Assembly: GCF_003289645.1 (NCBI RefSeq)
Contig: NZ_QLYX01000025.1
Location: forward strand, 1-64,000
Length of the DNA: 64,000 nt
Origin: Actinomadura craniellae
GTDB taxonomy: Bacteria; Actinomycetota; Actinomycetes; Streptosporangiales; Streptosporangiaceae
Reading direction: 5' to 3'
A program made the translations under genes and the position numbers. The notes beneath the pieces were generated by a model. It had not been told where the DNA came from. It did not search any database and saw nothing but the letters and a program-made list of their open reading frames with translations. Shown here piece after piece: positions 3,531 to 21,146 of the stretch (position 1 is its first letter; each line of letters begins with the position of its first letter).

Positions 3531-3567
3531 GACCGAACCTCCTTCCCCGGGACCGTGTCCGGCCCCG

Positions 3568-3607
3568 CTGTTCGTCTCCGCCGCTTCGAAGTGGCGGAGA
3601 CGAACAG
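3568..3607. promoter_or_regulatory. 40-bp near-perfect palindrome; candidate oriT or mob operator
   Basis: Arms CTGTTCGTCTCCGCC (3568-3582) and GGCGGAGACGAACAG (3593-3607) are perfect complements. The 10-nt centre holds a second palindrome, CTTCGAAG. Only one of the 20 base pairs is mismatched. The position just ahead of mobC is where oriT or an autoregulatory operator is expected. A terminator for something upstream is possible but no gene is seen there and no T-run follows. Confidence 0.6.
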
Positions 3608-4295
3608 TTTCAAGCATGGACCGCGCCCGGTCCAGCTTTAATTGCACGTTTTACATTTCTTGCCCGGCGCCAGCCGTACTTACTCTCCCACCTCGACGAG
3701 AGGTTCATATCACTACGTCACCGACTGCTCTCATTAGTGCTTAGGGCTGTTTTTCAAAGGTGCACAGTGCCGTTAAATCCGGTAATGGATGTCGGCGAGC
3801 GTCCGACAGCGAATTCTCGCCGACAGATGGTGTCCAAAGTGCGTATCGAAGTGGCTGTTCGGGTCAACGCCCGTCACCGCGCCCGTACGGCAGGAACCAG
3901 CGAGTGGATGCCGAGCCGGAATACCTTGGAGTCGCACGTCCGGCTCATCCGGCGGCCCGGCCTCGACAGTGGGGCGAAGGGTGCATCTCCGGAATCGTGA
4001 TCGATCATCGCCCATCACCTCCGGGTGGCTGGCCCTTACCAGACCGCCACGAATGGGACCCGCTGCTGCAGAGCACGTTGAGCGGTCGCCACGCCGACGG
4101 ACACGAGGTTCTCCACACCGTCGACGGAATTCACCCTCCACTTCACCGGCAGGGGCGGTCTCACTGCCTACGGCGAGAGCCTGGTAAGGCTCTCAGCGGT
4201 CCTGTGATCTTCATGGTCGTCGGTCGAGATCGACGAACCGCTCGGCCTTAGACGAGTGGGCGATCCATGAGCCCGGCAGGTGTCGTCCGGTGACG
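3608..4295. other. Region without a convincing gene
   Basis: The region is less GC-rich than its surroundings, especially at 3630-3780. It holds a hairpin at 3790-3825 with 10-bp arms TGTCGGCGAG and CTCGCCGACA. Short frames (3737-4000 plus, 4168-4368 minus) have arginine/serine/proline-rich translations without ribosome binding sites or recognisable domains. It may carry the mob promoter and decayed cargo; I see nothing else that can be supported. Confidence 0.4.
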
Positions 4296-4904: not shown

Positions 4905-6239
4905 ATGTCGCACCTCGATGGAATAGTCGGCACTGTGACCGAGTGGGGCGTGCTGAAAGTCGGACAGGTGTACCGGTACGCGCGCGGCAAGAACTCCGAA
5001 AGCCCCGTGCTGGACGGCCACCCGAACTTCCATCACGTCACCCGGACTCCCGGCCTTCCCACCGTCCAGTTGGAGAGCGGCATCGACGGCCCTGCGGCAA
5101 TCAAGGCTCCTGAGGGACGTCGCAGACCCGCCGTTCTGATCCGATCGAGTCCGTGGAAGGCCGGCAGCGAACAGACACCGTGGCATGACGTCTTCGACAT
5201 GGACGACGGTCACCTTCGATACTTCGGCGATCACAAGTTCACCACGGACAAACCCCTCGGCCGGACTCCCGGGAACAAAGCCCTGCTCGAAGAGTTCGCT
5301 CATCACCTGGGCGGTTCTCCAGCAGACCGGGCCCGGGCCGCCCCGCTGCTCCTCTTCCGGTCCGTCACCCGAGGCGGGAAGCCGAAGGGACATGTCGAGT
5401 TCTGCGGCCTGGGCGTGCTCGAACGCGCAGAGCGGGTGCTCCAACGCGATCGAGAAGCCCGAACATTCGTCAACTACGTCTTCGACATCACCATCCTCGA
5501 TCTGAACGACGAAGAGGATCGGCTCCCCTGGCAATGGATCGCGGCACGCCGTGACGGCTCGACGGCGCTGGACGCCACTCAAGAACTGGCGCCGGCTGTC
5601 TGGCACCGGTGGATCCAGGAAGGGCAACAGGCGCTTCCACGACTCCGGCGACGGGTGGCCGCCAGGTCGGTGCACAAGTTGCGCGATCAACGGCCGACTC
5701 CGCGCAGCGCCGAAGAACGCGATCTCCAGGAGATCTACGACGCCTTCCACGACCGCAAGCACGACTTCGAACATCTCGCCGCGGCGGTCGCGGCGAGAGT
5801 GATCCGAGGTCGCGGCGCCGAGTACCGGGAGGGCTGGCTGACCCGGCAGTCCGGAGACGGCGGAGCCGACTTCATCGGCCGCCTCGACATCGGCACGGGC
5901 ATCGCCGTCACCAAACTCATCGTGCTCGGCCAGGCGAAATGCATCGCACCGGCCTCCACCGTGTCCGCCGACCAGGTCGCCCGCGTCGTCGCACGGCTTC
6001 AACGAGGCTGGATCGGCGTGTACGTCACGACGGGCTCCTTCTCCGAAGCCGCACAGCTGGAGATCGTCGAAGACCGATACCCGATCATCCTGGTCAACGG
6101 ATCGACGCTCGCCCAGCAGGTACGCCACATGGCGAACGAATCGCACGGCGGCGACCTGAAAGCCTGCATCACGAAACTGGTGGACGACTCACCGGCCGAA
6201 GTGCTCCAGCGCCGCCCTGAAGAGATCCTGCTCCTCTGA
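4905..6239 (+). CDS. Mrr-fold restriction endonuclease, AspBHI-like
   Basis: A 444-residue protein. The N-terminal half (VLKVGQVYRYARGK, later GNKALLEEF and VEFCGLGV) resembles the recognition region of AspBHI-type modification-dependent enzymes. The C-terminal domain from about residue 305 has the Mrr-type catalytic signature: GDGGADF with Asp322, then LGQAKC with Gln343 and Lys345, a QxK variant of PD-(D/E)XK. Such enzymes cut DNA carrying modified cytosine, or act as the nuclease of an R-M pair. It converges on vsr and dcm, so it could be the partner endonuclease of this methyltransferase. ATG 4905 lacks a clear ribosome binding site; GTG 4935 is the alternative start. Confidence 0.65.
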   Translation: MSHLDGIVGTVTEWGVLKVGQVYRYARGKNSESPVLDGHPNFHHVTRTPGLPTVQLESGIDGPAAIKAPEGRRRPAVLIRSSPWKAGSEQTPWHDVFDMDDGHLRYFGDHKFTTDKPLGRTPGNKALLEEFAHHLGGSPADRARAAPLLLFRSVTRGGKPKGHVEFCGLGVLERAERVLQRDREARTFVNYVFDITILDLNDEEDRLPWQWIAARRDGSTALDATQELAPAVWHRWIQEGQQALPRLRRRVAARSVHKLRDQRPTPRSAEERDLQEIYDAFHDRKHDFEHLAAAVAARVIRGRGAEYREGWLTRQSGDGGADFIGRLDIGTGIAVTKLIVLGQAKCIAPASTVSADQVARVVARLQRGWIGVYVTTGSFSEAAQLEIVEDRYPIILVNGSTLAQQVRHMANESHGGDLKACITKLVDDSPAEVLQRRPEEILLL

Positions 6240-6252
6240 ACCCGGCGCATGG

Positions 6253-6681
6253 TCAGGCCCTGCGAGCCCGTACCTCCTTGGCGATCTGCTCTGCGGCGAC
6301 GAGAGGGTCCTCGTGCTCCCAGACGCGGATGACGAGCCACCCTTCCTCGGCCAACAGGCGATCGATCTCCTCGTCCCGTTCACGATTGCGGCGGACCTTC
6401 TCGGCCCAGTACTCGGCGTTGGTCGCGGACTTGGTGTGGTGAGTCGGACAGCCGTGCCAGAAGCAGCCATCGAGGAAGACCGCGACCTTCGCTCGGGTGA
6501 AGAGCATGTCCGCAGTTCGCCGTAGTGACGGCAACGGCCGAGCCGACACTCGGTAGCGGAGGCCGAGCGCGTGAGTCGCCCGCCGAAGCTTCAGCTCGGG
6601 CTTGGTGTCACGGCCCTTGTTGGACCGCATGCTCTTCCGCACGCCCGGGCTGGATGCCCGGCTCGGTCGTTCGACAGTCAC
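6253..6681 (-). CDS. vsr: Very-short-patch repair endonuclease Vsr
   Basis: The protein shows the Vsr signatures in order: MRSNKGRDTKPELKLRRA, then ADMLF with the catalytic Asp, then VAVFLDGCFWHGCP and the C-terminal GWLVIRVWEHED. Vsr nicks 5' of T in T:G mismatches created by deamination of 5-methylcytosine, protecting the genome from its own Dcm-type enzyme. The gene follows dcm on the same strand. The frame runs back to 6846 through dcm. GTG 6681 gives about 142 residues, the normal family size, but no strong ribosome binding site decides the start. Confidence 0.85.
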   Translation of the reverse strand: MTVERPSRASSPGVRKSMRSNKGRDTKPELKLRRATHALGLRYRVSARPLPSLRRTADMLFTRAKVAVFLDGCFWHGCPTHHTKSATNAEYWAEKVRRNRERDEEIDRLLAEEGWLVIRVWEHEDPLVAAEQIAKEVRARRA

Positions 6682-6737
6682 GATGAACACATTAATGATG
6701 TTCGCCGCATCTTGCACGGGCAACCATACTGATTGGT

Positions 6738-7871
6738 TCAAGAATTTCGGAGATGCTCTTCGATGTGATTGGCCAGAGCCGCTGCGAACTCGACGGGCAC
6801 TGCATTTCCGATCTGACGAGCGATCTCCAGTTTGGATCCGCACCACTTGAAGTCGTCCGAGAACCCCTGCAAGCGAGCCGCTTCGAGATGCGATAGCGCC
6901 CGATCCTCATCGGGGTGCAGGTAACGGCCCTTCTCGGGTTTGAAGAATTCGGTCCGGATCGTCACCGACGGCTTGTCCCAGACGAGCCTGCCCATGACGT
7001 CTCCTGCGCCGCTCGTGTGCTTTCTCCAGCACGGAGCCTTGAGCTCGTCCGGGAGGTTGAATCGATTCCCGCCGGTGGGAATTGCACTGAAGCGTTGCTG
7101 GGACAGCGGAGTGTAGCTCCGGGTGATGTGCAGCTCGCGCGCCGTATAGACACCGGGCACGGTTTCACCGAAGACGGAGCACTCCCTGCCTTTCGGCAGA
7201 TCGACGTGACCTTGAGGTATTCTCGGTTCGAGATCGCCCAGTGCGTGCTTGACGGTTCTCCAGGCCGCGGCCGAGACTCTCGTCGATGGAACCGGGATCT
7301 TCTCGATGTCCCTGTGAGTTCCGATGACGATTGCCCGCTTGCGCAACTGAGCGGATCCGAAGTCGGTGGCTCTCAGGACGTCCACGTCGATTTCGTAATC
7401 GGAGAGCCTGCCTCCCTTTCCGAACTGCGCTCGGAACTCGCCGAACTGACGGGTCTTGAGAAATCGATCGACGTTCTCCAGCAGGAACGCCTTCGGACGA
7501 ACCTTCACGAGCGTGTCGACGTACCGCGCCCACAACTCGTTGCGCAGGTCGTCCTCCCGCTTCGCCCCTAGATTGGAGAATCCTTGGCAGGGCGGCCCGC
7601 CGACCACCACGTCGGCTTCCGGCAGATCTCCCTGAACCCAATCCGCGATGTCTCCGTGGTAGACATGATCTTCACCGAAGTTCGCGGCATAGGTGGCCGC
7701 AGCGAAGAGGTCCTGCTCGACGGCGACCGTCGGCTCGTACAAGCCAGTGGAACGGAAACCCTCTGAGAGTCCACCGCATCCGGCGAAAAGATCGATCACG
7801 CGAAGTGGAGACACGGGCGGCGGATCAAGGCGATCGGACACCGACTGCCAGCACCGCCCTCCACATGTCAT
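6738..7871 (-). CDS. dcm: DNA (cytosine-5-)-methyltransferase
   Basis: All main C5-methyltransferase motifs are present: I (VIDLFAGCGGLSEGF), IV (GGPPCQGFS, catalytic Cys95), VI (ENV), VIII (QLRKRAIVIG), IX (RLQGF) and X (IGNAVPVEFA). At up to 377 residues it is a compact single-chain enzyme. The recognition region lies between VIII and IX and does not reveal the target site. GTG codons at 7841 and 7814 are possible starts; none has a strong ribosome binding site. It modifies host DNA to protect it from the partner nuclease(s) and is divergent from the Z1 operon. Confidence 0.9.
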   Translation of the reverse strand: MTCGGRCWQSVSDRLDPPPVSPLRVIDLFAGCGGLSEGFRSTGLYEPTVAVEQDLFAAATYAANFGEDHVYHGDIADWVQGDLPEADVVVGGPPCQGFSNLGAKREDDLRNELWARYVDTLVKVRPKAFLLENVDRFLKTRQFGEFRAQFGKGGRLSDYEIDVDVLRATDFGSAQLRKRAIVIGTHRDIEKIPVPSTRVSAAAWRTVKHALGDLEPRIPQGHVDLPKGRECSVFGETVPGVYTARELHITRSYTPLSQQRFSAIPTGGNRFNLPDELKAPCWRKHTSGAGDVMGRLVWDKPSVTIRTEFFKPEKGRYLHPDEDRALSHLEAARLQGFSDDFKWCGSKLEIARQIGNAVPVEFAAALANHIEEHLRNS

Positions 7872-8306
7872 CTTCGAACTTGCGTTCGCATGTTACAGAC
7901 CCGCACGAGCAAAGATCCACATCGACGGCCGAACGAGCCCAGATCCTACTCGCGGTGATCGGGCGGCGCAGCCCGACCGCGGAGACCGGCAGCCGAACGT
8001 CTCCGCTCAGATGGAGCTTCGAGCCCGGACATCGCTTCATGACGAAGTAGACGCTTCGAAAGCCTTTAAACGGCTCTGACGCTACGGTCGGCCCCGTACA
8101 GGCCAGCCCGTTTTCCTTCCACCTGTTCGCAACACCTGTGAACCCCAGAATCGGCTATCGCCAAATCCTGAACGCAACTAGATCCTCACCGGTATGAACT
8201 GATTTGACGGACACTTGTCGTAACGTGGCAACTCTCCGGCCGATCAGAAGTCATAGCGAGACGAGCGTCCGGTGGTTCACGCCCGATCCGACAATCCAGC
8301 GGGTCC
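7872..8306. promoter_or_regulatory. Divergent control region between dcm and the Z1 operon
   Basis: This 435-bp non-coding stretch must hold the promoters for both arms of the locus. A small inverted repeat (CGAAC-TTGC-GTTCG) lies just upstream of dcm, and a TTGACG hexamer at 8204-8209 could serve as a -35 box for the Z1 side, though no -10 box sits at the ideal distance. Frames inside it are shadows. No RNA structure was recognised. Confidence 0.4.
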
Positions 8307-10922
8307 ATGACACGTGATCCGGCCGGAGCCTCCTCCTGCCGGATCGACGATGGGGACGACGTGGGCGACGACATCGACCAGAAGTACGAGGTTTTCAAGG
8401 ATCTGCTCGACTCGGGAACGCCCGAGGAAGCGGTCAAGAAGCTGGAGATCCTCGGTCTCGACGATGACGTCGTCCAGAAGATCATCGAGCGTCACGAACA
8501 GCGCATCATCCAGATCAGGGAGCTCGAGGAGCCCCATTCCGTAGTCCTCGGCAACCGGGACACCTGGTACACGGGCCCGCGTCCCAAGGACAAGTGCTGG
8601 CCCGCCGTCGCCGAGCTGCTCGAGAAGGCCGGCTGGCCGCGCGACCCCGCCATCGACAGCTTGGACACCGCGTCGACCAGGATCGTGTCCCTGCTGAACC
8701 ACCCCAAGGAGAAGGCGTTCTCCACGCGTGGACTCGTCGTCGGTTACGTGCAATCCGGGAAGACGACGAACTTCACCGCGGTCATGGCCAAGGCCGCCGA
8801 CCGCGACTACAAGTTGTTCATCGTTCTCGCGGGCATCCACAACGGTCTTCGACGCCAGACCCAGGCGAGGCTGGTCAAGCAGCTCGTCGAGCCCAATCCG
8901 ACCAGATGGTCGCAGTTGACCGACCTGGACAAGGATTTCGTACCGACGGCCAACGCCGCCTCGTTTTTCGGCAAGAGCAATAAGACTCACGTCCTCTGTG
9001 TCGTCAAGAAGAACGCGACCGTGCTGCGCAAGTTCGCCAAGTGGCTCGCCTCGGCGTCGGCCTACCTCAAGGACAGCCCTGCGCTGATCATCGACGACGA
9101 GGCGGACCAGGCGACCGTCGCCACGAAGTCGATCAATCCTCTGATCAGGGAGATCATCGATCAGCTCCCGAGGTGCGCCTATGTGGGATATACGGCCTCG
9201 CCGTTCGCGAACCTGCTCATCGATCCCAGCGCCGACGATCTCTACCCCGAACACTTCATCGTCAATCTGCCCAAGCCGCATGGACACTTCGGCACGGAGG
9301 TGCTGTTCGGTCGCTATGCCCTCGACGGAGAGGAGCCCGAGGAGGTCGACGACGGCTACGACATGATCCGTGAGGTGCCGAAGGATGACATCGAGTGCGT
9401 TCGTCCGCTCAAGCGGTCCGACACCGAGGGGTTCGTCCCAGAGATCACCGAGACGCTGATAGACGCGATCCGTTACTTCTGGCTCAGCACCGCGGCCCGG
9501 AAGGTGCGGGGCACCGGCAACCCGCACAGCACCATGTTGATCCACACCAGTGTCAACACGGCCGTCCACAACAGCTTCCGCACTCCGCTGGAGCACATTC
9601 GCTCCTGGATGCAGGATCGTCTCGACGATCCGCACCTGTTGCAGGAGCTGCGATCCCTGTGGGACTCGGAGACCGACCGCGTACCCGCCGAGGACTTCGG
9701 CGAGACGAAGGTCGCATTCGACGAATTGCTACCCCGATTGCCGGGAGTGATCGACGACTGCCGGATCATCATGGACAACTCCAGCAGTGAGGATCGGCTC
9801 GATTACGAGAACGGCCCGGTGATCGCGATCGCGGTCGGGGGCAACACCCTTTCCAGGGGTCTGACTCTCGAAGGCCTGTCCGTCAGCTATTTCGTCCGCG
9901 CCGTGTCGGCCTACGACACCCTGCTGCAGATGGGTCGCTGGTTCGGTTACCGGAACGGGTACGCCGATCTGCCACGCATCTGGATGACGACCGAATTGAA
10001 GGAGTGGTTCCGCCACCTGGCCACGGTCGAGACCGAGATGCGACGGGACATCGACGTCTACATGACCGAGGACAAGACACCGATGACCTTCGCGGTCAGG
10101 CTGCGCACCCATCCGGCCCTGCGTGTGACGGCCGCCGCCAAGATGAAGGCCGCGGTGAGGGCCGCCTCCGCGTACGGTGGGCAGCGGGTTCAGACGCGGT
10201 ACTTCCATACCAACGCCGAGTGGCTTCGCGCGAACCAGGACGCCGCACGCACCCTCATCACCAAGGCCGCGCAGAGCGCGACGAAGCGCGAGAGCCGGCC
10301 GGAGGCGGGTCGCCACCTTTTCCGAGGCGTACCCCACGACCATGTCATCGACTTCCTGGAAGGCTACGGCTTCCACGCCAAGTCCCAGGAATGCGACGCG
10401 GGCCTCCTGATCCGCTACATCGAGAAGCGAGTGCAGAGCGCCGGCGCACTGAAGAGATGGAACGTCGCGATCGTCGGCAACCCGGTGGGCTCGAAATCAG
10501 GAGACTTCGCCTTCGCTCCCGATGTGACAGTAGGAAGGATCATCCGAGCCCGACTCGTGCCGACCGAGCCCGACTTCGCGGACATCAAGACCCTCATGAG
10601 TCGCAAGGACGCCGCCGTCGACCTGGCGGGTGACACCGGCGGACTACAGGAACAACAGATCAAGGCCGAGCGGCGTAGGCAGCTTCCCGACACTGGGCTG
10701 TTGGTGCTCTACCCGATCGACAAGACCTCCGAGCCCGACCCCCCGAAGCCGAGCCGTCAGGCGATGAGTGCGGAGGACCACGTCATCGGCGTGGGCCTGG
10801 TGTTCCCTCAACCTGCAGGCGACGACAGCACGGTCGAGTGGGACTACGTCTCCGCCGACCTCTCCGGTGTGGAGATCGAGGAGGAGGATCTGACTCCGAT
10901 CGAATCCGAGGATCTCGGTTGA
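8307..10922 (+). CDS. Z1-domain superfamily 2 helicase-like ATPase
   Basis: An 871-residue protein with helicase-type motifs in order: Walker A GYVQSGKTT (146-154), Walker B IDDEADQ (262-268), motif III-like TASPFAN (296-302), SRGLTLEG (516-523) and the arginine-finger motif QMGRWFGYR (541-549). The last three are diagnostic of the Z1 family. Z1 proteins occur in predicted MORC-type R-M systems with methyltransferases, Vsr, PD-(D/E)XK proteins and GHKL ATPases, as here. The likely role is ATP-driven DNA remodelling or translocation. It heads a five-gene run with overlapping start/stop codons. The acidic C-terminus is probably unstructured. Confidence 0.88.
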   Translation: MTRDPAGASSCRIDDGDDVGDDIDQKYEVFKDLLDSGTPEEAVKKLEILGLDDDVVQKIIERHEQRIIQIRELEEPHSVVLGNRDTWYTGPRPKDKCWPAVAELLEKAGWPRDPAIDSLDTASTRIVSLLNHPKEKAFSTRGLVVGYVQSGKTTNFTAVMAKAADRDYKLFIVLAGIHNGLRRQTQARLVKQLVEPNPTRWSQLTDLDKDFVPTANAASFFGKSNKTHVLCVVKKNATVLRKFAKWLASASAYLKDSPALIIDDEADQATVATKSINPLIREIIDQLPRCAYVGYTASPFANLLIDPSADDLYPEHFIVNLPKPHGHFGTEVLFGRYALDGEEPEEVDDGYDMIREVPKDDIECVRPLKRSDTEGFVPEITETLIDAIRYFWLSTAARKVRGTGNPHSTMLIHTSVNTAVHNSFRTPLEHIRSWMQDRLDDPHLLQELRSLWDSETDRVPAEDFGETKVAFDELLPRLPGVIDDCRIIMDNSSSEDRLDYENGPVIAIAVGGNTLSRGLTLEGLSVSYFVRAVSAYDTLLQMGRWFGYRNGYADLPRIWMTTELKEWFRHLATVETEMRRDIDVYMTEDKTPMTFAVRLRTHPALRVTAAAKMKAAVRAASAYGGQRVQTRYFHTNAEWLRANQDAARTLITKAAQSATKRESRPEAGRHLFRGVPHDHVIDFLEGYGFHAKSQECDAGLLIRYIEKRVQSAGALKRWNVAIVGNPVGSKSGDFAFAPDVTVGRIIRARLVPTEPDFADIKTLMSRKDAAVDLAGDTGGLQEQQIKAERRRQLPDTGLLVLYPIDKTSEPDPPKPSRQAMSAEDHVIGVGLVFPQPAGDDSTVEWDYVSADLSGVEIEEEDLTPIESEDLG

Positions 10923-11938
10923 CCGAGCGACCGTGGCGAGACGTCCTCGACGTTCACTGGAACCGGTTGGAGACGGAACGTCCGTCGAACGCACGAAGAC
11001 TGCGCGTGTCCGACCTGCCGGTCGATTCGGCGAAGGGCAACCTCGCCGCCGCGATCGATCTCGACGGCTTCCGCCATCTCCTCGTGCCCGTGGACTCCCG
11101 TCAAAAGGTCCGGCCGGGTCTGAACGGCCCTGTGCTGCTCCTGAGGCGGCGTTCTCTCGAGGGAATCGACACCTTCCAGACCTACGCGGACCTGGCATGC
11201 CTCCGCGCGGACCTCAACGACCTCTTCACCGGCCTGTGCGCGGACGTGCTCAAGCGCGCCGAGGCATCCACCGACAACCCCGTCAAGGCGTTGTACACGG
11301 AACTCGATCGGTGGAAGTCGCTCTTCCAGGCCAAGAGCGGCCCACTGGGAGCCGAGCAGCAGTCTGGTCTGTTCGCGGAATTGACCGTGCTGGTCCGCCT
11401 CCTCGAACGAGACTCCGGTGCGCACCGTCTCTGGACCGGCCCCGAAGGACATCGACACGACTTCGCCGCCGGGCGATGCGCGATCGAGGTGAAGTCGTCC
11501 CTGAGCTCCGAGGGACGCCGGATGCGGATCCACGGACTCGATCAACTCGCCCCGCCGGCGAACGGGACCCTCCAACTGGCGTGGTTCCGGCTGGAACGCA
11601 CCTCGGGCGACGGTACGGGCCTCGTGGAACTCGCCGAACGAGTCGCTCGGCTCTGTGAGGACGAGAGCGCACTGCGCACGCGCCTTTCGCAGGCCGGCTA
11701 CAGCTCTGCGGACACCGAGGCCTACCGCAACGTCCGCTTCGTCGTCTCGGAGGAGCGGTGGTACGAGGTGAACGCGGACTTTCCGAAGCTCGTCGGTAAC
11801 GATCTGAGAGCGGCCGGCATCCCGATCGCCGTGTCCGACGTCCACTACACGATCGACATCACCAACGAACCGCCGATCCCCCTGGACGTCCAACACATGA
11901 ACGACGCTCTGTCCCGCTTGATCGAGGAGCCTGCATGA
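10919..11938 (+). CDS. PD-(D/E)XK motif protein, DUF4420 family
   Basis: TTG 10919 overlaps the Z1 stop (TTGA) and is preceded by GAGG seven nt upstream, which decides the start; a longer frame to 10838 lies inside Z1. The 339-residue product begins LTERPWRDVLDVHWNRL. It has a nuclease core with HDF (Asp181) followed by AIEVKSS (Glu190, Lys192), the D-ExK pattern of the DUF4420 putative restriction-endonuclease fold. It is the likely DNA-cutting subunit of the Z1/MORC system. Tight coupling to Z1 and to the GHKL gene suggests a complex made in fixed ratio. Confidence 0.82.
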   Translation: MTERPWRDVLDVHWNRLETERPSNARRLRVSDLPVDSAKGNLAAAIDLDGFRHLLVPVDSRQKVRPGLNGPVLLLRRRSLEGIDTFQTYADLACLRADLNDLFTGLCADVLKRAEASTDNPVKALYTELDRWKSLFQAKSGPLGAEQQSGLFAELTVLVRLLERDSGAHRLWTGPEGHRHDFAAGRCAIEVKSSLSSEGRRMRIHGLDQLAPPANGTLQLAWFRLERTSGDGTGLVELAERVARLCEDESALRTRLSQAGYSSADTEAYRNVRFVVSEERWYEVNADFPKLVGNDLRAAGIPIAVSDVHYTIDITNEPPIPLDVQHMNDALSRLIEEPA

Positions 11939-13860
11939 GCGAGCCCTCCTGGTGGTCACAGCCTTATCCCCCGGACGGCGCCAGTGCCGCCGAGGGGATC
12001 CGCAACCAACTCGGCCGCCCCGAGCTGGACCTGCTGACCATCCTGGTCCGCGAATCCGCGCAGAACAGTTGGGACGCACGCCTTCGTGAGGGCGGTGGGC
12101 CGGTCGAGTACGGCATCGACCTGCGGACCGTCGGCCCCGCACACGTCCAGGCCTGGCGCAGCCTGCTGCAACGCAACGCCCCCCTCGACGAGCATCTTCC
12201 CCTTCGCAGGTCGTTGCGACGTCCCAACATCCGGATCATGACCGTTTCGGATCGAGGCACCAGAGGGCTCGGTGGACCAACACGAGCGGACAAGGCCGTC
12301 ACGAGTGATCGCGATTTCGTGTCCTTCGTGCGCAACATCGGCGAGCCGCGCGACATGAAGCTCGGAGGCGGCACGTACGGCTTCGGTAAAGGGATCTTCT
12401 ATCTGGTCTCCGACCCGGGCACGATCCTCGTCCACACGCGCTGCCGCACCGCCCACGGGCTGGAGACCCGGCTGATCGGTTGCGCCCTCTGGAAGAAGTA
12501 CGTCGCGAAGAACCCGGAAGGCGAGAGAGGGTTCACAGGCCGACACTGGTGGGGTGTCACGACGGGTGAGGTCGTCGAACCCCTGATCGGAGCCGAGGCG
12601 GATGCGATGGCCCGTCGACTCGGCCTGGCACCTTTCAAGGCCGACGAGACCGGCACCTCCGTCGTCATGATCGATCCAGTGCTGGAAGACCGTGAGCCGA
12701 TCGACGCGGCAACGTACCTCGCAGAGACGATCATGTGGCATCTCTGGCCCAAGATGCTGGGCGACCCCACCGAATCGCCCGCGATGACGTTCTCCGTGAC
12801 GTGCGACGGCAGGAACGTCCCCGTCCCGGATCCTCGAGAGACCAGGCCGCTGAACCTGTTCGTCGACGCGTACCAGGCCTTGAAGGGACAAGAGGGCAAG
12901 GATCTTAGATGCGGCAATCCGAAGCAGTTCCTAGGCCGCCTGGGGCTGAAGAAAACGGTCGCCCCCGTGTTCGAGCCGACGGACGCGGGACGCATGGTGG
13001 GTATCGAAACGACGGCCCACCACGTATGCCTCATGCGCCCGGCCGAGCTCGTGGTGACTTACCACCAAGGCCCGAAGCCTCCGGCCGAACTTCTCTCGTA
13101 TGCCGGCGTCTTCCGAGCCGATGAAGCGATGGACGGCGTCTATGCCAAGGCCGAGCCGCCTACCCACGACGCCTGGAATCCGCACTCGTTGCAGTATCCC
13201 GAGAGCACGTTCGTGCGCACGACCTTCACACGCATCAACGAGGCACTGACCGACCTCCTGGACTTGGGCGGTGGAGCCCGGGCCGGATCGGCCCGGGTCC
13301 CCCTCGGCGCCGCGAGCAACAGGTTCTCCCCTCTCATGGGGGGTGCATGGGGCATCGGTGGCGCCACCGACTACCGCACGGCCGGAACCAGCGGCTCCAC
13401 CGGCACCTCCCCCTCTTCATCGGACGAAAGGAGTCGTTCCAAGCCGACCAACGTCGGTGCTCCTGCTCCTTCGGCCGGCGGCAAGAGCGCTGGAGCCGGG
13501 ACCGGGTCCGGTGCGACGAAGCAGCGTCGCCTGCGTGTGGACTACGTCGGCGACGCCTATCTGGACGAGCGTGCCGGTCACGCCGTGATCGTGCAGCCTT
13601 TCCGGCTGCCCGTCCCCGGCCTCCAACGCGTGAGCGCCGAGCTCGCCGTCGCGCTCAAAGGCGCCAGCGAGACGGAACCGCCGGTCGGTGCGGAGATGCC
13701 CGGACTGGTCGGTTGGGAAGATGCTTCGGGCGGCCTTTCCGCCACCGCCTCGTACGTCATCGAGGGCGGTGACGGTGCAATCTGGCACGCGATCATTCGC
13801 CCGGCGCCCGACACGGTGACGGACGTCACCGTGGCGACTCAGGCGGTGCAGGCGCCATGA
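11935..13860 (+). CDS. MORC/Hsp90-like GHKL ATPase
   Basis: A 641-residue protein overlapping its upstream neighbour by ATGA. The GHKL ATP-binding signature is clear: N box RESAQNSWDARL (Glu40, Asn44, Asp47), G1 box VSDRGTRGLGG (Asp106, Gly108) and G2 box LGGGTYGFGKG (143-153). The catalytic Glu is conserved. The middle (about 180-440) would correspond to an S5-like transducer domain. A Ser/Thr/Gly-rich linker at about 475-530 joins a C-terminal beta-rich domain. Bacterial MORC-like ATPases of predicted R-M systems are thought to act as ATP-gated DNA clamps or loop-trappers, like GyrB, MutL and eukaryotic MORC. Confidence 0.82.
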   Translation: MSEPSWWSQPYPPDGASAAEGIRNQLGRPELDLLTILVRESAQNSWDARLREGGGPVEYGIDLRTVGPAHVQAWRSLLQRNAPLDEHLPLRRSLRRPNIRIMTVSDRGTRGLGGPTRADKAVTSDRDFVSFVRNIGEPRDMKLGGGTYGFGKGIFYLVSDPGTILVHTRCRTAHGLETRLIGCALWKKYVAKNPEGERGFTGRHWWGVTTGEVVEPLIGAEADAMARRLGLAPFKADETGTSVVMIDPVLEDREPIDAATYLAETIMWHLWPKMLGDPTESPAMTFSVTCDGRNVPVPDPRETRPLNLFVDAYQALKGQEGKDLRCGNPKQFLGRLGLKKTVAPVFEPTDAGRMVGIETTAHHVCLMRPAELVVTYHQGPKPPAELLSYAGVFRADEAMDGVYAKAEPPTHDAWNPHSLQYPESTFVRTTFTRINEALTDLLDLGGGARAGSARVPLGAASNRFSPLMGGAWGIGGATDYRTAGTSGSTGTSPSSSDERSRSKPTNVGAPAPSAGGKSAGAGTGSGATKQRRLRVDYVGDAYLDERAGHAVIVQPFRLPVPGLQRVSAELAVALKGASETEPPVGAEMPGLVGWEDASGGLSATASYVIEGGDGAIWHAIIRPAPDTVTDVTVATQAVQAP

Positions 13861-14753
13861 GCAGGCTGATTCTCCCGTACAAGCTTCCGAGCGACACGTC
13901 GGTACAGGCCTCCGATTGGACACTGCTCCTCAAGGAGGGCCCGATCCCACTGCCCGAAGCGTTGCCTGATTGGGACTATCAGACGGACTTGGCCCTCCGC
14001 CGACGTGTCCGGGTGGACGTGGATCGAGTCCGCACCGAAACGGGCCTGCCTACTTCGGCCGTCCTCAATCTCACGGTCGTCTGGACGGCCACCGGATCCA
14101 ACCTGCGGGCCTCCGCCGAACGGATCACCATCCGTGAGCCCAGGGTCTCGGACGTCGAGGTCTCGGTGGACCTTCGAGGTACGGACCTCGGTGGGCTGCT
14201 CACTTTGGAGACCGTCCTCGTTCTGGGTGAACCCTGCAAGAACGGCAGGCCGACGGCGCCTCGACGCGCCGGCTCGGTCCTTTGGAGCGATCGGCATGGT
14301 CTGCGCCTTCAAGGCGACGCTCCACAATTCCCCATGGCCGTCATCGACTTCGCCAAGACCTCATTTCCCGACGGCGCCGGCTGGCACCTGCAGATCGGCG
14401 ACAACCTCGACGCCGCCGCAATGGGTGCGCTGTTGCTCCTGGTGAACGAACGGAACAAGCCGGCGGCCACGGCGTTTCAGAACGCCTCGGCTCCTCGGCA
14501 GGTCGACCGGCTGGTCCTCTCCGCCGTATACGGCGACGTGGCCAGGGTCATGATCGAGCACGCCCTGCGCAAGGACGACTTCGTCGATGGACACCCCTTT
14601 CCGGAAGAGACTCTGGGAGCAACGCTGATGGCCTTGTTCCACAGACTTTTTCCGGGATCTTCGATCAACGACGTCCGGCTTCGCCTCGAACACTCCCCGG
14701 CCCTGTTCACATCAGACCTCCAGGCCGCAGTCAAGATCTTCGAGGACTTCTGA
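13857..14753 (+). CDS. Uncharacterised protein of the Z1/MORC operon
   Basis: A 298-residue protein overlapping the GHKL gene by ATGA. It was not recognised. The first 150 residues look beta-rich with alternating polar/hydrophobic strands (LNLTVVWTATGSNLRASAERITI). The second half is mostly helical (AAAMGALLLLVNERNK, VARVMIEHALRKDDFV). No nuclease, ATPase or zinc motif is visible. Position and coupling make it a probable structural subunit or recognition factor. Confidence 0.75.
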   Translation: MSRLILPYKLPSDTSVQASDWTLLLKEGPIPLPEALPDWDYQTDLALRRRVRVDVDRVRTETGLPTSAVLNLTVVWTATGSNLRASAERITIREPRVSDVEVSVDLRGTDLGGLLTLETVLVLGEPCKNGRPTAPRRAGSVLWSDRHGLRLQGDAPQFPMAVIDFAKTSFPDGAGWHLQIGDNLDAAAMGALLLLVNERNKPAATAFQNASAPRQVDRLVLSAVYGDVARVMIEHALRKDDFVDGHPFPEETLGATLMALFHRLFPGSSINDVRLRLEHSPALFTSDLQAAVKIFEDF

Positions 14754-16189
14754 TGGGCTTCTTGTACCCGAGACTTCTGAGCGGCCAGGCCAAGCCGCTG
14801 CATGAGGCTTATCAGACGATGGCACCCGCAGAGCTGACCGATCGCGTGGGCGGGACCCACGACTCCGCCGTATTCGCAGCGACAGGCGGCGACAGGACCT
14901 CTGAGAAGGACCTGCGACGGCTGAGGGAGAAGGTCGTCGCGCTGGCCCAGGGATCGAACTTTCCGGAAGAGTCCACTCGGGAGCTGCGCAGCACCTTCGA
15001 CCTGAAACTCGCCAAGTTGCTGCATACGGAGATGGGGATCGTTCCCGCCGAGGCGGCATCGGGCGACGTCTGGGCCTTCCTGGCTCTCGTCCTGCTTCCG
15101 GACGTCGCCTACTGGCGCTACCCCAGCCCTCCAGGCGACCGCGTCCTCGGCACCGACCTCACTCGACACGTGTTCGGACGTCTGTGGTGGCGCGCTCATC
15201 TGGTCCACTCACCCGGCGATCCGGACCCGTACTCCGCGCTCTCCATCCTGGGTGAAGCCGCCTTCGATCAGATCTACGCTCGCCGCAAGGCACTGGGGGG
15301 CAGTCCGTACCTGGTCAAAGCGATTCTCCGGGTATGGGACTCTCTGAACCTGCACGAATTCAAAGAACGTCAGGTTCTGATCGACTTTCTCATGCGGCTT
15401 CTACGACTCGGGCCGTTCGTCGCCTTTGAGGCTCTGAATACAGATGCATTGGACGCCGAGCTCCGTTCCGTAGTCGAAGAATCCGTACGCGCAATACTGA
15501 AGGCCACCTCGGCGAGTCCCCAGGAGATCGACGCTCGGGTAAAGATCGTTCTTTCTGGTTCTGCACTCGGCCACGCTCCGAGCGTCTCTCCCCGGAAGGG
15601 TCCGACTGTCATCCGCACGAGTCTCCCTGCGGCCACCACGGACGAGGCCTCTCGTCGCCAGGACGAAAGAACCGGTCTCCGGGTCAGTCCTGCTCCCTAT
15701 TCGGCGTACGAGGGTCCGAGCTTCGGAGATCCCCGGGTTCTCGGTCTCAAGGAGCGGGCCGAGGCCGTGGAGACCGTGGTTCGCGCCGAGGGGCCCGTGA
15801 CCGCGTTGCGGGTCTTCCGGATCATCACCGGGCTTGCGGGCACCAGACTTCGGGAGAGCGCCGCCAGGCACCTCGTTGAGGCGACCAAGTACGCGGTCCG
15901 CAGGAACATGCTGGCTGTGGAGAATCAGGTCGGGCGCCGCGGATACCTGGGGGCGACCCTGCACATGCCGGACGGCCCCTCCTGTGTACTGCGCACCCGA
16001 GGCCCTCGCGCACTCGACGAGATCCCCGATCGCGAGCTCGTGGCCGCGGCGAACCTTGCACAGGCGGCCTCCACCACCCTCGACCTCGAAGAGCTCGCGA
16101 AGCGGACCTCCCAGATCTTCGGCTACGAACGGTCTACGGCGCCGTTCAAGGAGTGCCTGTTCGACGCCCTACAGAAGCACGGCAGGTGA
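14753..16189 (+). CDS. Uncharacterised protein, DUF6339-like
   Basis: ATG 14753 shares its A with the stop of the previous gene (TGATG), so translation is coupled. The 478-residue product starts MGFLYPRLLSGQAK and carries DVWAFLALVLLPDVAYWRYP in the first half. I associate this with the DUF6339 family from memory and not firmly. The first 200 residues are helical. The C-terminal part contains a helical repeat-like segment (about 325-380) that could be a winged-helix or HEAT-like unit. No catalytic motif was seen. It closes the five-gene coupled run that starts with Z1. Confidence 0.7.
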   Translation: MGFLYPRLLSGQAKPLHEAYQTMAPAELTDRVGGTHDSAVFAATGGDRTSEKDLRRLREKVVALAQGSNFPEESTRELRSTFDLKLAKLLHTEMGIVPAEAASGDVWAFLALVLLPDVAYWRYPSPPGDRVLGTDLTRHVFGRLWWRAHLVHSPGDPDPYSALSILGEAAFDQIYARRKALGGSPYLVKAILRVWDSLNLHEFKERQVLIDFLMRLLRLGPFVAFEALNTDALDAELRSVVEESVRAILKATSASPQEIDARVKIVLSGSALGHAPSVSPRKGPTVIRTSLPAATTDEASRRQDERTGLRVSPAPYSAYEGPSFGDPRVLGLKERAEAVETVVRAEGPVTALRVFRIITGLAGTRLRESAARHLVEATKYAVRRNMLAVENQVGRRGYLGATLHMPDGPSCVLRTRGPRALDEIPDRELVAAANLAQAASTTLDLEELAKRTSQIFGYERSTAPFKECLFDALQKHGR

Positions 16190-16323
16190 CATATCCCCCA
16201 TTTCGAACAAAATATCGATATTTCCAAGCTTTGCACCGTCGGCCGGTTCACTCCTCTTAAAATGTCGGCGCCTCTGGATAGCCTGCATCTGCATCATTGA
16301 ACGGCCCCGAGGAGGATGCAGGC
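16190..16323. promoter_or_regulatory. AT-rich spacer before the helicase-nuclease gene
   Basis: The first half of this 134-bp spacer is clearly AT-rich for the region (ACAAAATATCGATATTTCC) and breaks the run of overlapping genes. It could contain a separate promoter for the downstream helicase. TATCGATA is a small palindrome. No terminator hairpin with a T-run is visible. Confidence 0.35.
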
Positions 16324-19300
16324 ATGGCGATCACCGCCGAGGTGCTCGATCAACTACTGAGCGGCTTGAGCGACGAGGCCCGCGACATCGTCACCTCCGA
16401 TGCGCGACGCCTTTTGGTGATCGCGGGAGCGGGTGCAGGTAAGACCGAGGCCATGGCTCGAAGGATCGCATGGTGGCACGGCCGGGACGGAATTCCCAAA
16501 GAGCAGATCGTCGCCTTCACCTTCACCGAGCAGGCCGCGGAAGAGATGAAGTTCCGGATCCGGAAGTACATCCAGGTGGTGGAAGAACCCGGCGTGGATC
16601 CGAGCCTGGGCGGCATGTACGTCGGCACGATCCACGGTTTCTGCCTGAACACGCTGCGGAAGACCTGGCCTGACGAATACCACAACGACGATGTGATCGA
16701 CGATGTCGCTCGATACTCGCTCGTCCAGGAGGGCTACAACTTTCTGCTCGGGCTCAAGGCCTTGGAGAACGCGCTCAAGGAGACATCGGGAAGGTCGTAC
16801 CAGTCCCGTGGGCAGACGATCAACCATTTCCTCAACGCCTACGATCTGCTGAACGAGTACGACCAACTCGACGTCGAACTCAGCGACGAGCCTCGGCCGC
16901 AGATCGGAGCCGAGCAGGAGTGGTGTCGGCAGGCTCGTCTTAGGACTCATGTCGGCGACGGTCCGGTGGCTCAGGCGTTCGCCACCGCCGCGGCCCGCTA
17001 CTACGCCTACTTGCGTTGCAGGCACTTCCTGGACTTCAGCACCGCTCAGTCGGAGCTCACTCGCAGGCTCCGGTCCGACGAGTCGGCTCGCTCTCGGCTG
17101 CGCAGTTCGATCACCCACCTGGTCGTCGACGAAGTTCAGGACATCAACCCGGTTCAAGATGAGATCCGGAGAATGCTCGTCGATGAGACCGACGGATGGC
17201 TGACGGCCGTCGGTGACCATAGACAAGCGATCTACGGTTGGCGCGGCGGTCGTATCGACATCATGGCCGGCCTGTCCGCAGAACTCCGTCGTGCCGAAGA
17301 CGGCGATGTCCTCGAGCTGACCGCCAATTACCGGTCCACTCCGAGGATCATCGACGTCTCCAACCGGTGGAACACCACCATCAACGTGCCGGGAGAAATG
17401 CCCAGCCCTGACATGACTCACGGCCGAGCTCAGCGCATAGACGCCGATCCATGTCATGTCGGGATCCTGGACTTCGGTGGTGAAGAACGTGCGGATGAAG
17501 CGCTGTGGATCGCCGAAACGGTCAAGGGGCTCGTCCCCAACGGGGAGTCCGGCGCTGCGCACGACACACCGGACGGCGAACGAGGAATCACCTACGCGGA
17601 CATCGCCGTACTGGTCCGCACGACCACGGATGCACGCACTTACATGCAGGCTCTACGGAATGCAGGCGTCCCGGCGGTGGTGAAGGCGGGTCCAGATCTC
17701 TTCGCTCAGGCGGAGGTCCTCCTGTTCGCAGCGGCCTTGTCCCTGTCCGGTGGACGCGACACCTTCTACGGCGCGGACTGGAACCCACGGTCGCTGCCCA
17801 ACCGCCTCGACACCGTGCTCGGCATCACGGACGCAGGTGTGCAGGGAACTGCTCAACGCGCCGTTCGCGCCGCATTCGCTGCGCTCTCTTCGGAAGGACT
17901 GCGCGTCGAGCCGGGCGCAGCCGACCGCGTGATCGCAGCCGCCGAGGCCATGAACGCTCGTCTCAACGGCAATGCCGTGGACCCATCGGTGGTCCGCACC
18001 GTCCGCACATCCGAACTCCGCCGATGGCTTTCAGGCCGTGACGAGGTGCGACGAGTCTTCCCGCAGACGATGCTGCAGTGGTTGATGGCGGAAGGCGGCG
18101 TGTCTGCCTGGGACTCGCCGGACAACCGAGCCGTCACCGCCATGTACCACTTGGGTCAGCTCAGCTCGCTCATTACGGGCATCGAAACACCCGGCTGGAC
18201 GCGAGCGAAGTCCTATACTCACCAGATCACCAGCCTGCTCCTATGGGCCACGGAATCAGCGCGTCCGCAGGAGGCACCCCTCCTCGCCACACCGGACGCC
18301 GTGACCGTCACGACGATCCACAGCGTCAAGGGCCTCCAATATGCCGCGGTCTTCGTGGCGGACGTGTGCAGTTACCGGTTCCCCAGCAGCAACGCCAAGA
18401 AGAAGCCTTCGCTGCCCTTCGAGGGGGAGCTGGCCGAAGTGATCGCTGCGGAGAACCTGGCGGACAATGCCAACAACGACGACGAGAGGCGGCTGATGTA
18501 CGTCGCCCTGACGCGCGCGGAGCGCTTCCTTTTCGTCTCCGCCTCGAAGCCGTCGAAGTTCTTCAAGGAGCTCACTTCGATCATCGCGGGCGCCGGTGGC
18601 ACCGTCCAAAGCTCTGATGAATCCACAGCCCTTCCGGGCCTCCGTCTGCTGCCGAGTGAGCGGAGCAGAGAAGATCGACTGATCACCTCCTTCTCTGATC
18701 TGCGGTACTACCTGGAGTGTCCACACGACTTCTACCTTCGCAAGGTGCTCGGCTTCACGCCCACCGTCGACCAGGCGTTCGGCTACGGACGAGGCATCCA
18801 CAACCTCATGCGCGCCGTCCATTCGAACCCTGCCTTCTGGGCCGGTCTCGCCACGGATCCTCCTGCACTCAAGCAGGCGGTCCAGGCGTTGATAGATCGG
18901 GGGCTCTTCTACCTGCGCCACACGACCGGCGAACCCGCCGCGAACATGCATCGGCGCGGTGTGGAGATCGTGACCGACTACGTCCGCACCTACGCCAAAG
19001 AGCTGGAGACGCTCTCCTTCGAGCCGGAACGGGAGTTCGAAGTGCTCGTGCCCGGCGAGAACGTCCTCATCGCCGGCGCCATCGACGTGGTCCGCCTCGA
19101 CTCACCGCCCAGAGTCACGATCATCGACTTCAAATCAGGCGAGCGCGAGACCGACAAGCACGATGCGCTCGACGAGGATGAGATGCGCCTCCAGGTCTCG
19201 CTTTACGCCGTCGCCGCCCGCCAGGAGCTGGAGTACGAGCCCGAACGCGGTCTCGTCCGCTACCTGGGCGAGAGAGATCGCTCCCGCAAAGAGCTCGCAG

Positions 19301-19485
19301 TCCCCCTGGACGAGGAGACGATCTCCGACAGCATCGCCGCTGTGTCGTCGCTCGCAGGCGGCATCCAACGCCGCCAGTTTCGCATCGGTCCCCGCAAACC
19401 CGATAAGAACGGCGACCACCGCTGTACAACTTGCGATTGGTCTCGAATCTGTGGACTCAAGAACAGCACACCGCTCGGCGAATAA
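16324..19485 (+). CDS. UvrD-type helicase with C-terminal AddB-like Fe-S nuclease
   Basis: ATG 16324 follows GAGGAGG; a TTG at 16297 is less likely. The 1053-residue protein has superfamily 1A motifs: Walker A AGAGAGKT (34-41), DEVQD (269-273), GDHRQAIYGWRGG (from 297), IHSVKGLQYAAVFV and YVALTRAERFL (from 726). The last 250 residues form a PD-(D/E)XK nuclease with Asp921 and DFK (Asp935, Lys937). Cys799 (YLECPHDF) together with CTTCDWSRIC (Cys1034, 1037, 1043) gives the C...C-x2-C-x5-C set that ligates 4Fe-4S in AddB. It is likely an end-processing helicase-nuclease recruited into the defence locus. Confidence 0.85.
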   Translation: MAITAEVLDQLLSGLSDEARDIVTSDARRLLVIAGAGAGKTEAMARRIAWWHGRDGIPKEQIVAFTFTEQAAEEMKFRIRKYIQVVEEPGVDPSLGGMYVGTIHGFCLNTLRKTWPDEYHNDDVIDDVARYSLVQEGYNFLLGLKALENALKETSGRSYQSRGQTINHFLNAYDLLNEYDQLDVELSDEPRPQIGAEQEWCRQARLRTHVGDGPVAQAFATAAARYYAYLRCRHFLDFSTAQSELTRRLRSDESARSRLRSSITHLVVDEVQDINPVQDEIRRMLVDETDGWLTAVGDHRQAIYGWRGGRIDIMAGLSAELRRAEDGDVLELTANYRSTPRIIDVSNRWNTTINVPGEMPSPDMTHGRAQRIDADPCHVGILDFGGEERADEALWIAETVKGLVPNGESGAAHDTPDGERGITYADIAVLVRTTTDARTYMQALRNAGVPAVVKAGPDLFAQAEVLLFAAALSLSGGRDTFYGADWNPRSLPNRLDTVLGITDAGVQGTAQRAVRAAFAALSSEGLRVEPGAADRVIAAAEAMNARLNGNAVDPSVVRTVRTSELRRWLSGRDEVRRVFPQTMLQWLMAEGGVSAWDSPDNRAVTAMYHLGQLSSLITGIETPGWTRAKSYTHQITSLLLWATESARPQEAPLLATPDAVTVTTIHSVKGLQYAAVFVADVCSYRFPSSNAKKKPSLPFEGELAEVIAAENLADNANNDDERRLMYVALTRAERFLFVSASKPSKFFKELTSIIAGAGGTVQSSDESTALPGLRLLPSERSREDRLITSFSDLRYYLECPHDFYLRKVLGFTPTVDQAFGYGRGIHNLMRAVHSNPAFWAGLATDPPALKQAVQALIDRGLFYLRHTTGEPAANMHRRGVEIVTDYVRTYAKELETLSFEPEREFEVLVPGENVLIAGAIDVVRLDSPPRVTIIDFKSGERETDKHDALDEDEMRLQVSLYAVAARQELEYEPERGLVRYLGERDRSRKELAVPLDEETISDSIAAVSSLAGGIQRRQFRIGPRKPDKNGDHRCTTCDWSRICGLKNSTPLGE

Positions 19486-19615: not shown

Positions 19616-21076
19616 CTAAACCGATCGCAAGTTCGGTCGATTGTTTGCGTTTTGGGCCAGCAGTTGATCAGCAAGGGCCGCTTGGAGCTCGGCGATCTTG
19701 GTTTGCGCTTCTTCAAGTTGTTGTTCGAGATGAGGGGTGGAGTCCTGGACGGTGTGGGGGCTACGGATCTTGTCGAGGGCTTCAAGAGCCGTCTCGTCGG
19801 CGGTGGGGAGGGTGTGGAGGTAGCGCTCGGTGGTGGAGAGCTTGCGGTGGCCGAGGCGTTCCTTGACGACCTGGAGGTCGGCGCCGCCGGCCAGTAGCCA
19901 GGAGGCGTGGGCGTGACGGAGGTCGTGGATGCGGGGCTTGAAGTCCAGGCCAGCGGCTTCGCGGGCCGGGTACCAGCAGTGCTTGCGGAACCAGTTGGCG
20001 GAGAGGTGCGGGTCGGTATCGACGAGACGGGGCTTACGGGGGTTGTCCCTGCCCTTGGCACGGCGCTTGGCTCGGTAGTCGGCGTAGGCGCGGCGGCAGC
20101 GATCACACTTGCACTTGCCGAGGTTGTAGGCGGTGATGGTGCCGTGGGTGTAGGTGCGACCGTTGGGGGCGGTGAAGGTGAGGGAGGCCGGGTCGGCCAG
20201 TTCGAGCCGCGGCTTGGGCGGGTCCTCCCAGCGGCGGCTGAAGAAGAGGTCGTCGGGGCCGAGGTCCTCCGCCTCCGCGTAGGCCTTGAGCTTGGTGACG
20301 ATCTGGGCACTGAGTTTGATGCGGCGCGAACGCTTGCCCTTGGGGTAGTCCTTGACCAGGAAGCGCTTGCCCTCAGGGTGGTGTTCGGGGACCAGTTCGA
20401 CGACCGCGCGACTGACGGTGAGAATGCGGGTGGCGAAGTCGAGGTCCTTGACCCGCAGTTCGGTGAGTTCGCCCCAGCGCAGGCCGCTCTCGATGTCGGT
20501 CTCCACGAGGAGTTTCGCGACCGGGTCGGGCAGGGCGTTGTAGATGAGGCTGAACTGCTCGGCGGTGATGACCGCTCGGGGCTTTTCGGGAATGGGGTCG
20601 GTCTTCACCCCCCTGCTCGGGTGATTGACGATGACGTCGTCGTTCAGGGCGGTGGTGAAGACGGAATTGAGGATCGCCGTCTTGCAGTACTTGATGCGGT
20701 GGGCCGAGACGCCCTTCCTCTTGAGCTTGGTGATCCAGTCGCGGACGTGCTCCGAGGTGATCTCGCTCATCTTGAGGTTCGCGAAGTACGGCATGACGTG
20801 CGCGTTGATCGCGTACGTGTAGTCCTGGCGGGTGGTGGCCTCCATCCGATGGTTGGGCAGCCAGGTCTTCTCGACGTAGGCGTGGAAGGTCTGCCTGCCT
20901 CGGCGAGCGTCCCCCGGTTTGCCCGATATGACCCGCCCCTCCGCTTCACGTAATGCTCGTCGCGCTTCCTTTTTTGTGTCGTATATGCCAGCCGACTGCT
21001 GGCGCCCCTGGGCGTCCTTGTAGAGCGCCTGGTAGCGGGTCGCCGTCTTGTTCTTGTAGGTGCGGACGAAGCCCAT
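19616..21076 (-). CDS. int: Tyrosine-type site-specific integrase with zinc-knuckle insert
   Basis: ATG 21076 follows GAGGTGAT; the frame extends to 21109 without need. The 486-residue protein has an AP2-like arm-binding start (ATRYQALYKDAQGRQ), a SAM-like core-binding domain, and catalytic residues Arg200 (GLRWGEL), HDLR (His384, Arg387), GH (409-410) and nucleophile Tyr419. A segment at 311-342 inside the catalytic domain reads HGTITAYNLGKCKC-DRCRRAYADY. This HGT..AY..G.C.C..C module is common in actinophage proteins and probably binds zinc. A coiled-coil tail (from about 445) ends the chain. It would catalyse integration at the adjacent tRNA-Gly site. Confidence 0.92.
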   Translation of the reverse strand: MGFVRTYKNKTATRYQALYKDAQGRQQSAGIYDTKKEARRALREAEGRVISGKPGDARRGRQTFHAYVEKTWLPNHRMEATTRQDYTYAINAHVMPYFANLKMSEITSEHVRDWITKLKRKGVSAHRIKYCKTAILNSVFTTALNDDVIVNHPSRGVKTDPIPEKPRAVITAEQFSLIYNALPDPVAKLLVETDIESGLRWGELTELRVKDLDFATRILTVSRAVVELVPEHHPEGKRFLVKDYPKGKRSRRIKLSAQIVTKLKAYAEAEDLGPDDLFFSRRWEDPPKPRLELADPASLTFTAPNGRTYTHGTITAYNLGKCKCDRCRRAYADYRAKRRAKGRDNPRKPRLVDTDPHLSANWFRKHCWYPAREAAGLDFKPRIHDLRHAHASWLLAGGADLQVVKERLGHRKLSTTERYLHTLPTADETALEALDKIRSPHTVQDSTPHLEQQLEEAQTKIAELQAALADQLLAQNANNRPNLRSV

Positions 21077-21101
21077 GCCGATCACCTCAGCAGCTTGATC
21101 A

Positions 21102-21146
21102 TCTATCACCCATCTATCACCGGACTCGGTGTAATCGGGTGATAGA
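21102..21146. repeat. Three TCTATCACC iterons upstream of int
   Basis: TCTATCACC occurs at 21102-21110 and 21113-21121 as direct repeats and inverted (GGTGATAGA) at 21138-21146. They lie 26-70 bp upstream of the integrase start and inside the attP arm, where arm-type integrase or excisionase sites and the int operator are expected. Confidence 0.55.

Follow-up and report, generated by a model that had tools for sequence, protein, structure and literature searches.

The DNA between positions 4905 and 19485 of a 64-kb stretch of Actinomadura craniellae (the whole stretch is hereafter called the window) encodes a dense run of predicted restriction and DNA-processing enzymes, which raises the question of which of them work together and on what DNA. 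The original prediction described a nine-gene defence system in which a Z1 operon was joined by an “AddB-like” helicase-nuclease and a “Mrr-type” endonuclease. Here, we argue that a smaller, conserved and widespread set of seven genes (Vsr, Dcm, Z1, DUF4420, GHKL, UNK1, and DUF6339) most likely recognizes incoming DNA by its lack of the host's methyl marks and cleaves it, and we put the probability of ATP-dependent restriction-modification by this operon, with DNA cut where the Dcm mark is missing, at roughly 0.6. An ORF check of the window recovered all nine named reading frames where they had been placed, and domain searches with Pfam and PADLOC identified seven of the nine proteins:

4905..6239, + strand: AspBHI-like modification-dependent restriction endonuclease (Pfam PF18062, RE_AspBHI_N, 3e-32, and PF04471, Mrr_cat, 5e-10; PADLOC mREase_II, 1e-195)
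6253..6846, - strand: Vsr-type mismatch endonuclease (Pfam Vsr, 3e-17)
6738..7871, - strand: C5-cytosine DNA methyltransferase, Dcm (Pfam PF00145, 8e-60; intact motif IV, GGPPCQ)
8307..10922, + strand: DEAD-Z1 ATPase (Pfam Z1, 3e-68; PADLOC MzaC, 2e-97; Walker A GYVQSGKTT, IDDEAD, and YDTLLQMGRWFG)
10919..11938, + strand: DUF4420 PD-(D/E)XK nuclease (TTG start; Pfam PF14390, 3e-58; E...D...EvK)
11935..13860, + strand: paraMORC2-type GHKL ATPase (GHKL and ExxxH motifs; PADLOC PDC-M33A, 3e-8)
13857..14753, + strand: UNK1, an orphan core subunit without a family
14753..16189, + strand: DUF6339 core subunit (Pfam PF19866, 2e-11)
16324..19485, + strand: UvrD-type helicase with a C-terminal PD-(D/E)XK nuclease, AddA/RecB-like (Pfam UvrD, 5e-46; PDDEXK_1, 4e-26)

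Two of the earlier names change with these matches. The helicase-nuclease combines UvrD helicase domains with a nuclease and is UvrD/AddA-like instead of AddB-like, and the endonuclease does carry an Mrr_cat domain but is of the AspBHI-like, modification-dependent type. Next to the AspBHI-like gene lies a small ORF (4296-4775, - strand) without a Pfam match. The true start of Vsr is probably near 6670-6690, some 55 codons further in; the first ~55 codons of the called ORF overlap or adjoin dcm.

The central ATPases and the nuclease retain their expected motifs. The YDTLLQMGRWFG stretch of Z1 matches the DThhQXuRhFG motif of Iyer et al. The GHKL protein has no Pfam hit, but the motifs of its fold are nonetheless present (RESAQNSWDAR, DRGTRGLGG, GGGTYGFGK, and EPPTH in the window) and conserved, as VRE.AQNSWDAR, DRGT.GLGGPTRA, and GGGTYGFGK; the residues concerned are E40/N44/D47, D106 to G114, GGGTYGFGK, and E407-P-P-T-H411. 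E407 and H411 are invariant in 6 aligned sequences, and EPPTH matches the paraMORC2 ExxxH motif of Iyer et al.; this motif and the others of Z1, GHKL, and DUF4420 are conserved in 81 sequences. A sequence search against solved structures returned nothing for Z1 or GHKL. In the AlphaFold2 model of UNK1 (pLDDT 86.7), an Ig-like beta sandwich at the N-terminus (about residues 10-152) is followed by a mixed or helical C-terminal part; the structure matches listed for it were only common Ig-like sandwiches (best Z 8.8, VIA-align), so no function is read from the structure, and UNK1 matches no PADLOC model.

Operons of this kind were predicted as paraMORC2 restriction operons by Iyer, Abhiman, and Aravind in 2008 (PMC2292703), a kinship that the original prediction had correctly drawn. 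The features common to those operons and the window are the ExxxH GHKL protein, an SFII helicase with DThhQXuRhFG, an RE-fold protein, DCM, and Vsr; the available text of that paper makes no mention of UNK1, DUF6339, or the helicase-nuclease, and a figure legend has uncharacterised X and Z domains. The composition had also been called unrecognised, yet the kind of the six-gene core was already predicted by Miller et al. in 2022 (PMC9523054), whose Type I, as far as the accessible text describes it, consists of Z1, a PD-(D/E)XK DUF protein, a cytosine methyltransferase, and another three genes, with repair endonucleases associated. The first three are common to both that type and the window, the three additional genes (GHKL, UNK1, and DUF6339 here) and the repair endonuclease (Vsr here) fit the accessible description by number and wording only, and the window adds the helicase-nuclease and the AspBHI-like enzyme. 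What stands of the claim is that we found no laboratory test of a paraMORC2 or Miller Type I system in the searchable literature, which excludes most subscription journals.

Other known systems resemble the window in parts. The stress-sensitive restriction systems CglI and NgoAVII (PMC4267653, PMC5737866) share a C5 methyltransferase and a DEAD-Z1 ATPase with it, but they consist of three genes with a PLD-B3 nuclease and are without GHKL, UNK1, and DUF6339; Pfam found no PLD-B3 endonuclease domain among the nine window proteins. In MZA (mzaABCDE), PADLOC matched the window Z1 to MzaC (2e-97) and DUF4420 to MzaD (3e-19), and neither PADLOC nor Pfam matched any other MZA component, including the AIPR protein, among the nine proteins; with only two components matching, we rejected MZA membership. 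The VcSduA/paraMORC3 Shedu system (PMC12137116) likewise pairs a GHKL ATPase with a PD-(D/E)XK nuclease, but as a single fused protein with a DUF4263 nuclease and without Z1 or a methyltransferase, whereas the window has separate genes. The PADLOC candidate PDC-M33 weakly matches the window GHKL (PDC-M33A) and DUF6339 (PDC-M33C, 1e-5). A literature search returned no paper on PDC-M33 and no further papers on Z1-domain defence. The system type was thus already predicted in 2008 and 2022; new, to our knowledge, are UNK1 and DUF6339 as constant parts, a locus-bound helicase-nuclease, and fusions to cysteine-less methyltransferases.

The constancy of UNK1 and DUF6339 emerged from searches with two baits. 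Of the 396 genomes sampled from the phylum, six have a homologue of UNK1, including the one from which the window comes. Four of the five non-window neighbourhoods hold Z1, GHKL, UNK1, and DUF6339 (DUF4420 was not detected in one of the four, L012), and the fifth, which is the most distant, combines Z1, DUF4420, and GHKL with a weak UNK1 that is not followed by a DUF6339 gene. An alignment of GHKL retrieved 333 relatives in species genomes, of which the best 80, all actinobacterial, were taken; these loci are therefore the closest relatives and not a random sample, and many come from Streptomyces, so that the observations are not independent. In profile searches of these best 80 of 333 loci, Z1, GHKL, UNK1, DUF6339, and Dcm were each found in all 80, DUF4420 in 78, Vsr in 64, a UvrD-like protein in 7, and an AspBHI-like protein in 5. 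Because plain Dcm is matched as well by a DUF6339 profile derived from the fused proteins, the gene was required to follow UNK1. The genes from Z1 through DUF6339, said to be made together, do overlap in the window (by 4, 4, 4, and 1 bp at the Z1/DUF4420, DUF4420/GHKL, GHKL/UNK1, and UNK1/DUF6339 junctions), and when each start was set to the in-frame one closest to the junction, overlaps of 4 or 1 bp recurred at 74/80, 73/80, 75/80, and 70/80 homologous junctions, respectively, which is not chance. The proposal that the two unknown proteins belong to the operon is thereby borne out. The flanks of L079, L085, and L093 contain a helicase, a MORC-like HATPase_c_3 plus Hypoth_Ymh protein, and an MZB-domain protein, each in about 6-7 loci, and these recurring genes suggest wider defence islands.

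Beyond these relatives, the Z1-GHKL-UNK1-DUF6339 set is also found on plasmids from Synechococcus, Agrobacterium, and Rhizobium. DUF4420 accompanies it on the Synechococcus plasmid and was not detected beside it on the Agrobacterium and Rhizobium plasmids (L098, L121), where a Dcm-Vsr-restriction endonuclease set lies some 9 kb away. Viral contigs gave two GHKL matches, both distant. A search for the Z1 family, in which Corynebacterium glutamicum, the home of CglI, was recovered as a positive control, located 12 places in 10 of the 396 phylum genomes. Half of them (6/12) carry the paraMORC2-type set; at the other six, some with DUF4420 and Dcm, none of the GHKL, UNK1, or DUF6339 of that set was seen, the Z1 gene of one (L136) being cut by the edge of the region examined. 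UNK1 and DUF6339 therefore mark the paraMORC2 type and not Z1 loci generally. One genome (G182; contigs G182:C5 and G182:C9; L007, L135, L136) has three Z1 genes, one in a paraMORC2-type set, one with DUF4420 and Dcm but without a matching GHKL, and one cut by the edge of the region examined.

The two outermost genes behave differently. The original prediction counted them into a single nine-gene system and expected homologues of the genes at 13857, 14753, and 16324 to recur at related loci; the first two did so in 80/80, and the third has an orthologue in only four. This orthologue (79% identical, 1053 aa; L015, L016, L027, L067) always lies directly downstream of DUF6339 on the same strand, after a gap of 157-171 bp. 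Among 250 genomes of the window's order, the helicase-nuclease occurs in 5 and GHKL in 13, and all five helicase-nuclease genes sit directly downstream of the GHKL operon (Fisher p = 1.6e-7, with phylogeny not corrected); in the phylum sample, it was found only in the window's genome at the threshold used. Vsr and Dcm lie downstream of it in L015, L016, and L027 and upstream of Z1 in the window, so the linkage survived rearrangement. The helicase-nuclease is thus a lineage-specific but locus-bound accessory. UvrD matches in L017, L090, and L079 were rejected as orthologues, being 28-37% identical over parts of the protein. The AspBHI-like enzyme (58-72% identical) is present in 5/80 loci in varied positions and orientations, and the order sample has just one further match to it (49%, partial), in a genome without a paraMORC2-type GHKL; it is probably a sporadic neighbour and a separate defence gene. 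The invariable adjacency of the helicase-nuclease, where found, would suit an obligate nine-gene system, but the absence of both add-ons from most of the 80 loci rules obligate membership out, the scattered AspBHI-like enzyme adds to the case, and we regard the nine-gene reading as highly improbable. Only slightly better placed, and still improbable, is a functional pairing in which the Dcm-dependent core would cut unmodified DNA and the AspBHI-like enzyme foreign 5-methylcytosine DNA: the two are neighbours in the window, and five related loci contain both, but the enzyme is sporadic and variably placed, and clustering in defence islands explains enough.

A different alternative concerns the core itself, which might be a DNA-triggered defence of a non-classical kind, with Z1, paraMORC2, UNK1, and DUF6339 sensing the topology of foreign or replicating DNA, DUF4420 acting as effector (possibly on the host too), and Dcm-Vsr being merely a linked methylation module. 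A full-length active PCQ methyltransferase is encoded in 78/80 loci, the remaining two being cut near contig ends, and the active Dcm proteins form two deeply separated clades in a tree (30 and 52 rows, the window's in the larger), both of which are paired with a closely related, nearly unchanged core. Such exchangeability speaks for the non-classical reading, as does the Agrobacterium and Rhizobium arrangement, in which Dcm and Vsr stand apart from the core and beside another annotated restriction enzyme. Neither any core region nor Vsr tracks the clade swap (largest excess 0.02 in distance), so that this comparison marked no specificity subunit. Two explanations fit: the clades share one methylation site, or the core has no subunit that co-evolves with Dcm and reads the Dcm site. 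A swap without a tracking region also weighs against the restriction-modification reading, in that the restriction core may lack any direct readout of the Dcm site. Against a merely linked methylation module stand the presence of Dcm in 80/80 loci and the methyltransferase-fold domain fused to DUF6339 in 39 of them, which tie the core to methylation, and we consider the non-classical reading unlikely.

The restriction-modification reading is preferred because of the co-occurrence of Z1, GHKL, UNK1, DUF6339, and Dcm, the overlaps, the intact motifs, an active Dcm, the DNA-binding modules on DUF6339, the recurring core order, carriage on mobile DNA, and the precedents of CglI and VcSduA. The DEAD-Z1 subunit of CglI hydrolyses ATP, is needed to cleave unmethylated sites, and shows evidence of translocation (PMC4267653, PMC5737866); in VcSduA, both the GHKL and the PD-(D/E)XK activities are required for phage defence (PMC12137116); and Iyer et al. 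proposed that MORC-type ATPases join recognition and cleavage sites by looping (PMC2292703). From the observed gene content and order, overlaps, active-site motifs, and co-occurrence, we infer restriction of phage or plasmid DNA, a division of labour, and sensitivity to methylation. Dcm would methylate a cytosine within the recognition sites of the host and so protect self DNA, while Vsr would repair the T:G mismatches arising from deamination of 5-methylcytosine. DUF6339, through a DNA-binding C-terminal module, and UNK1 would place the complex on DNA, along which the Z1 ATPase would translocate on the double strand, as proposed for the CglI DEAD-Z1 subunit, and the paraMORC2 GHKL protein would close into a clamp, linking recognition of the site to the action of the nuclease. 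DUF4420 is the candidate for cleaving foreign DNA without the mark, but because it is missing in 2/80 loci and beside the Agrobacterium and Rhizobium plasmid sets, it may not be the sole nuclease; in the window's lineage, the helicase-nuclease would then degrade the cut ends.

How the complex might find its DNA is suggested by the variable C-terminal part of DUF6339. The model of the window protein (pLDDT 85.9) comprises a helical N-terminal domain (about 1-267), for which no significant covering structure match stood out among those listed and from which no function is read, and a winged helix (about 328-410; match Z 8.2). Across the best 80 of 333 loci, DUF6339 ends after about 260 residues in 29 clear cases, to which L092 and L093 with a misplaced start can be added; it has a C-terminal region resembling the winged helix of the window protein in eight, an XRE-type HTH in L064 (above the Pfam cut-off) and L062 (below it), and a fused C5-methyltransferase domain in 39 (among L019-L083, e.g. 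L020:12888-14735). In place of the PCQ of motif IV, the fused domains have PR[VIL] or a similar sequence, so that the catalytic cysteine is replaced in all 39, and the same loss is seen in seven standalone Nocardia proteins. These 46 cysteine-less domains form one group in a quick tree (support 91), adjoining two standalone proteins that keep the cysteine. The latter (L017:17959-19224 and L027:18174-19400) are methyltransferases with an intact PCT motif, each beside a second active Dcm, and likely represent the precursor state of the dead domains. Loci with a dead domain also hold an intact Dcm, except L035 and L044, both near contig ends, with the Dcm of L044 cut by the contig end. The searchable literature yielded nothing further on cysteine-less methyltransferases in restriction systems.

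The repeated attachment of DNA-binding modules points to DUF6339 as a DNA-targeting adaptor. We offer tentatively a more specific version of the restriction-modification reading, in which an ATP-dependent restriction machine would be directed to DNA by an exchangeable DUF6339 adaptor that has repeatedly gained winged-helix, XRE, or dead C5-methyltransferase domains, the dead methyltransferase would read host methylation sites, and the window's lineage would have added a dedicated RecB-like helicase-nuclease for resection. If the restriction reading is true, a GHKL (MORC/MutL-like) ATPase, a DEAD-Z1 translocase, and a nuclease form one restriction machine from actinobacteria to cyanobacteria and rhizobia, and the operon would provide a bacterial setting for studying the clamp action of MORC-type proteins on DNA. 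The fusion of a dead methyltransferase to DUF6339 suggests a self/non-self reader derived from a methyltransferase, and the transformation resistance of many Streptomyces may partly stem from such systems.

The operon is carried by an integrative element at tRNA-Gly, as the mobile setting given in the original prediction already implied, with the following features in the window:

1962..3101, - strand: MobA/VirD2-like relaxase (Pfam PF03432, 3e-8)
3126..3647, - strand: NikA-like protein (element context)
19616..21109, - strand: tyrosine integrase (Pfam PF00589, 2e-21)
21243..21286, + strand: copy of the tRNA-Gly(TCC) 3' end, attachment site (44-bp exact match to the intact tRNA-Gly at G000:C20:19003-19076)

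The contig begins at window position 1, and the other end of the element therefore lies outside the window. The first 26 kb or so of the window have a G+C content of 0.62-0.68, and the remainder has 0.69-0.77. The intact tRNA-Gly(TCC) gene sits elsewhere in the genome, on a separate contig (L105), where an IS3-type transposase and a UvrD-like protein are encoded nearby.
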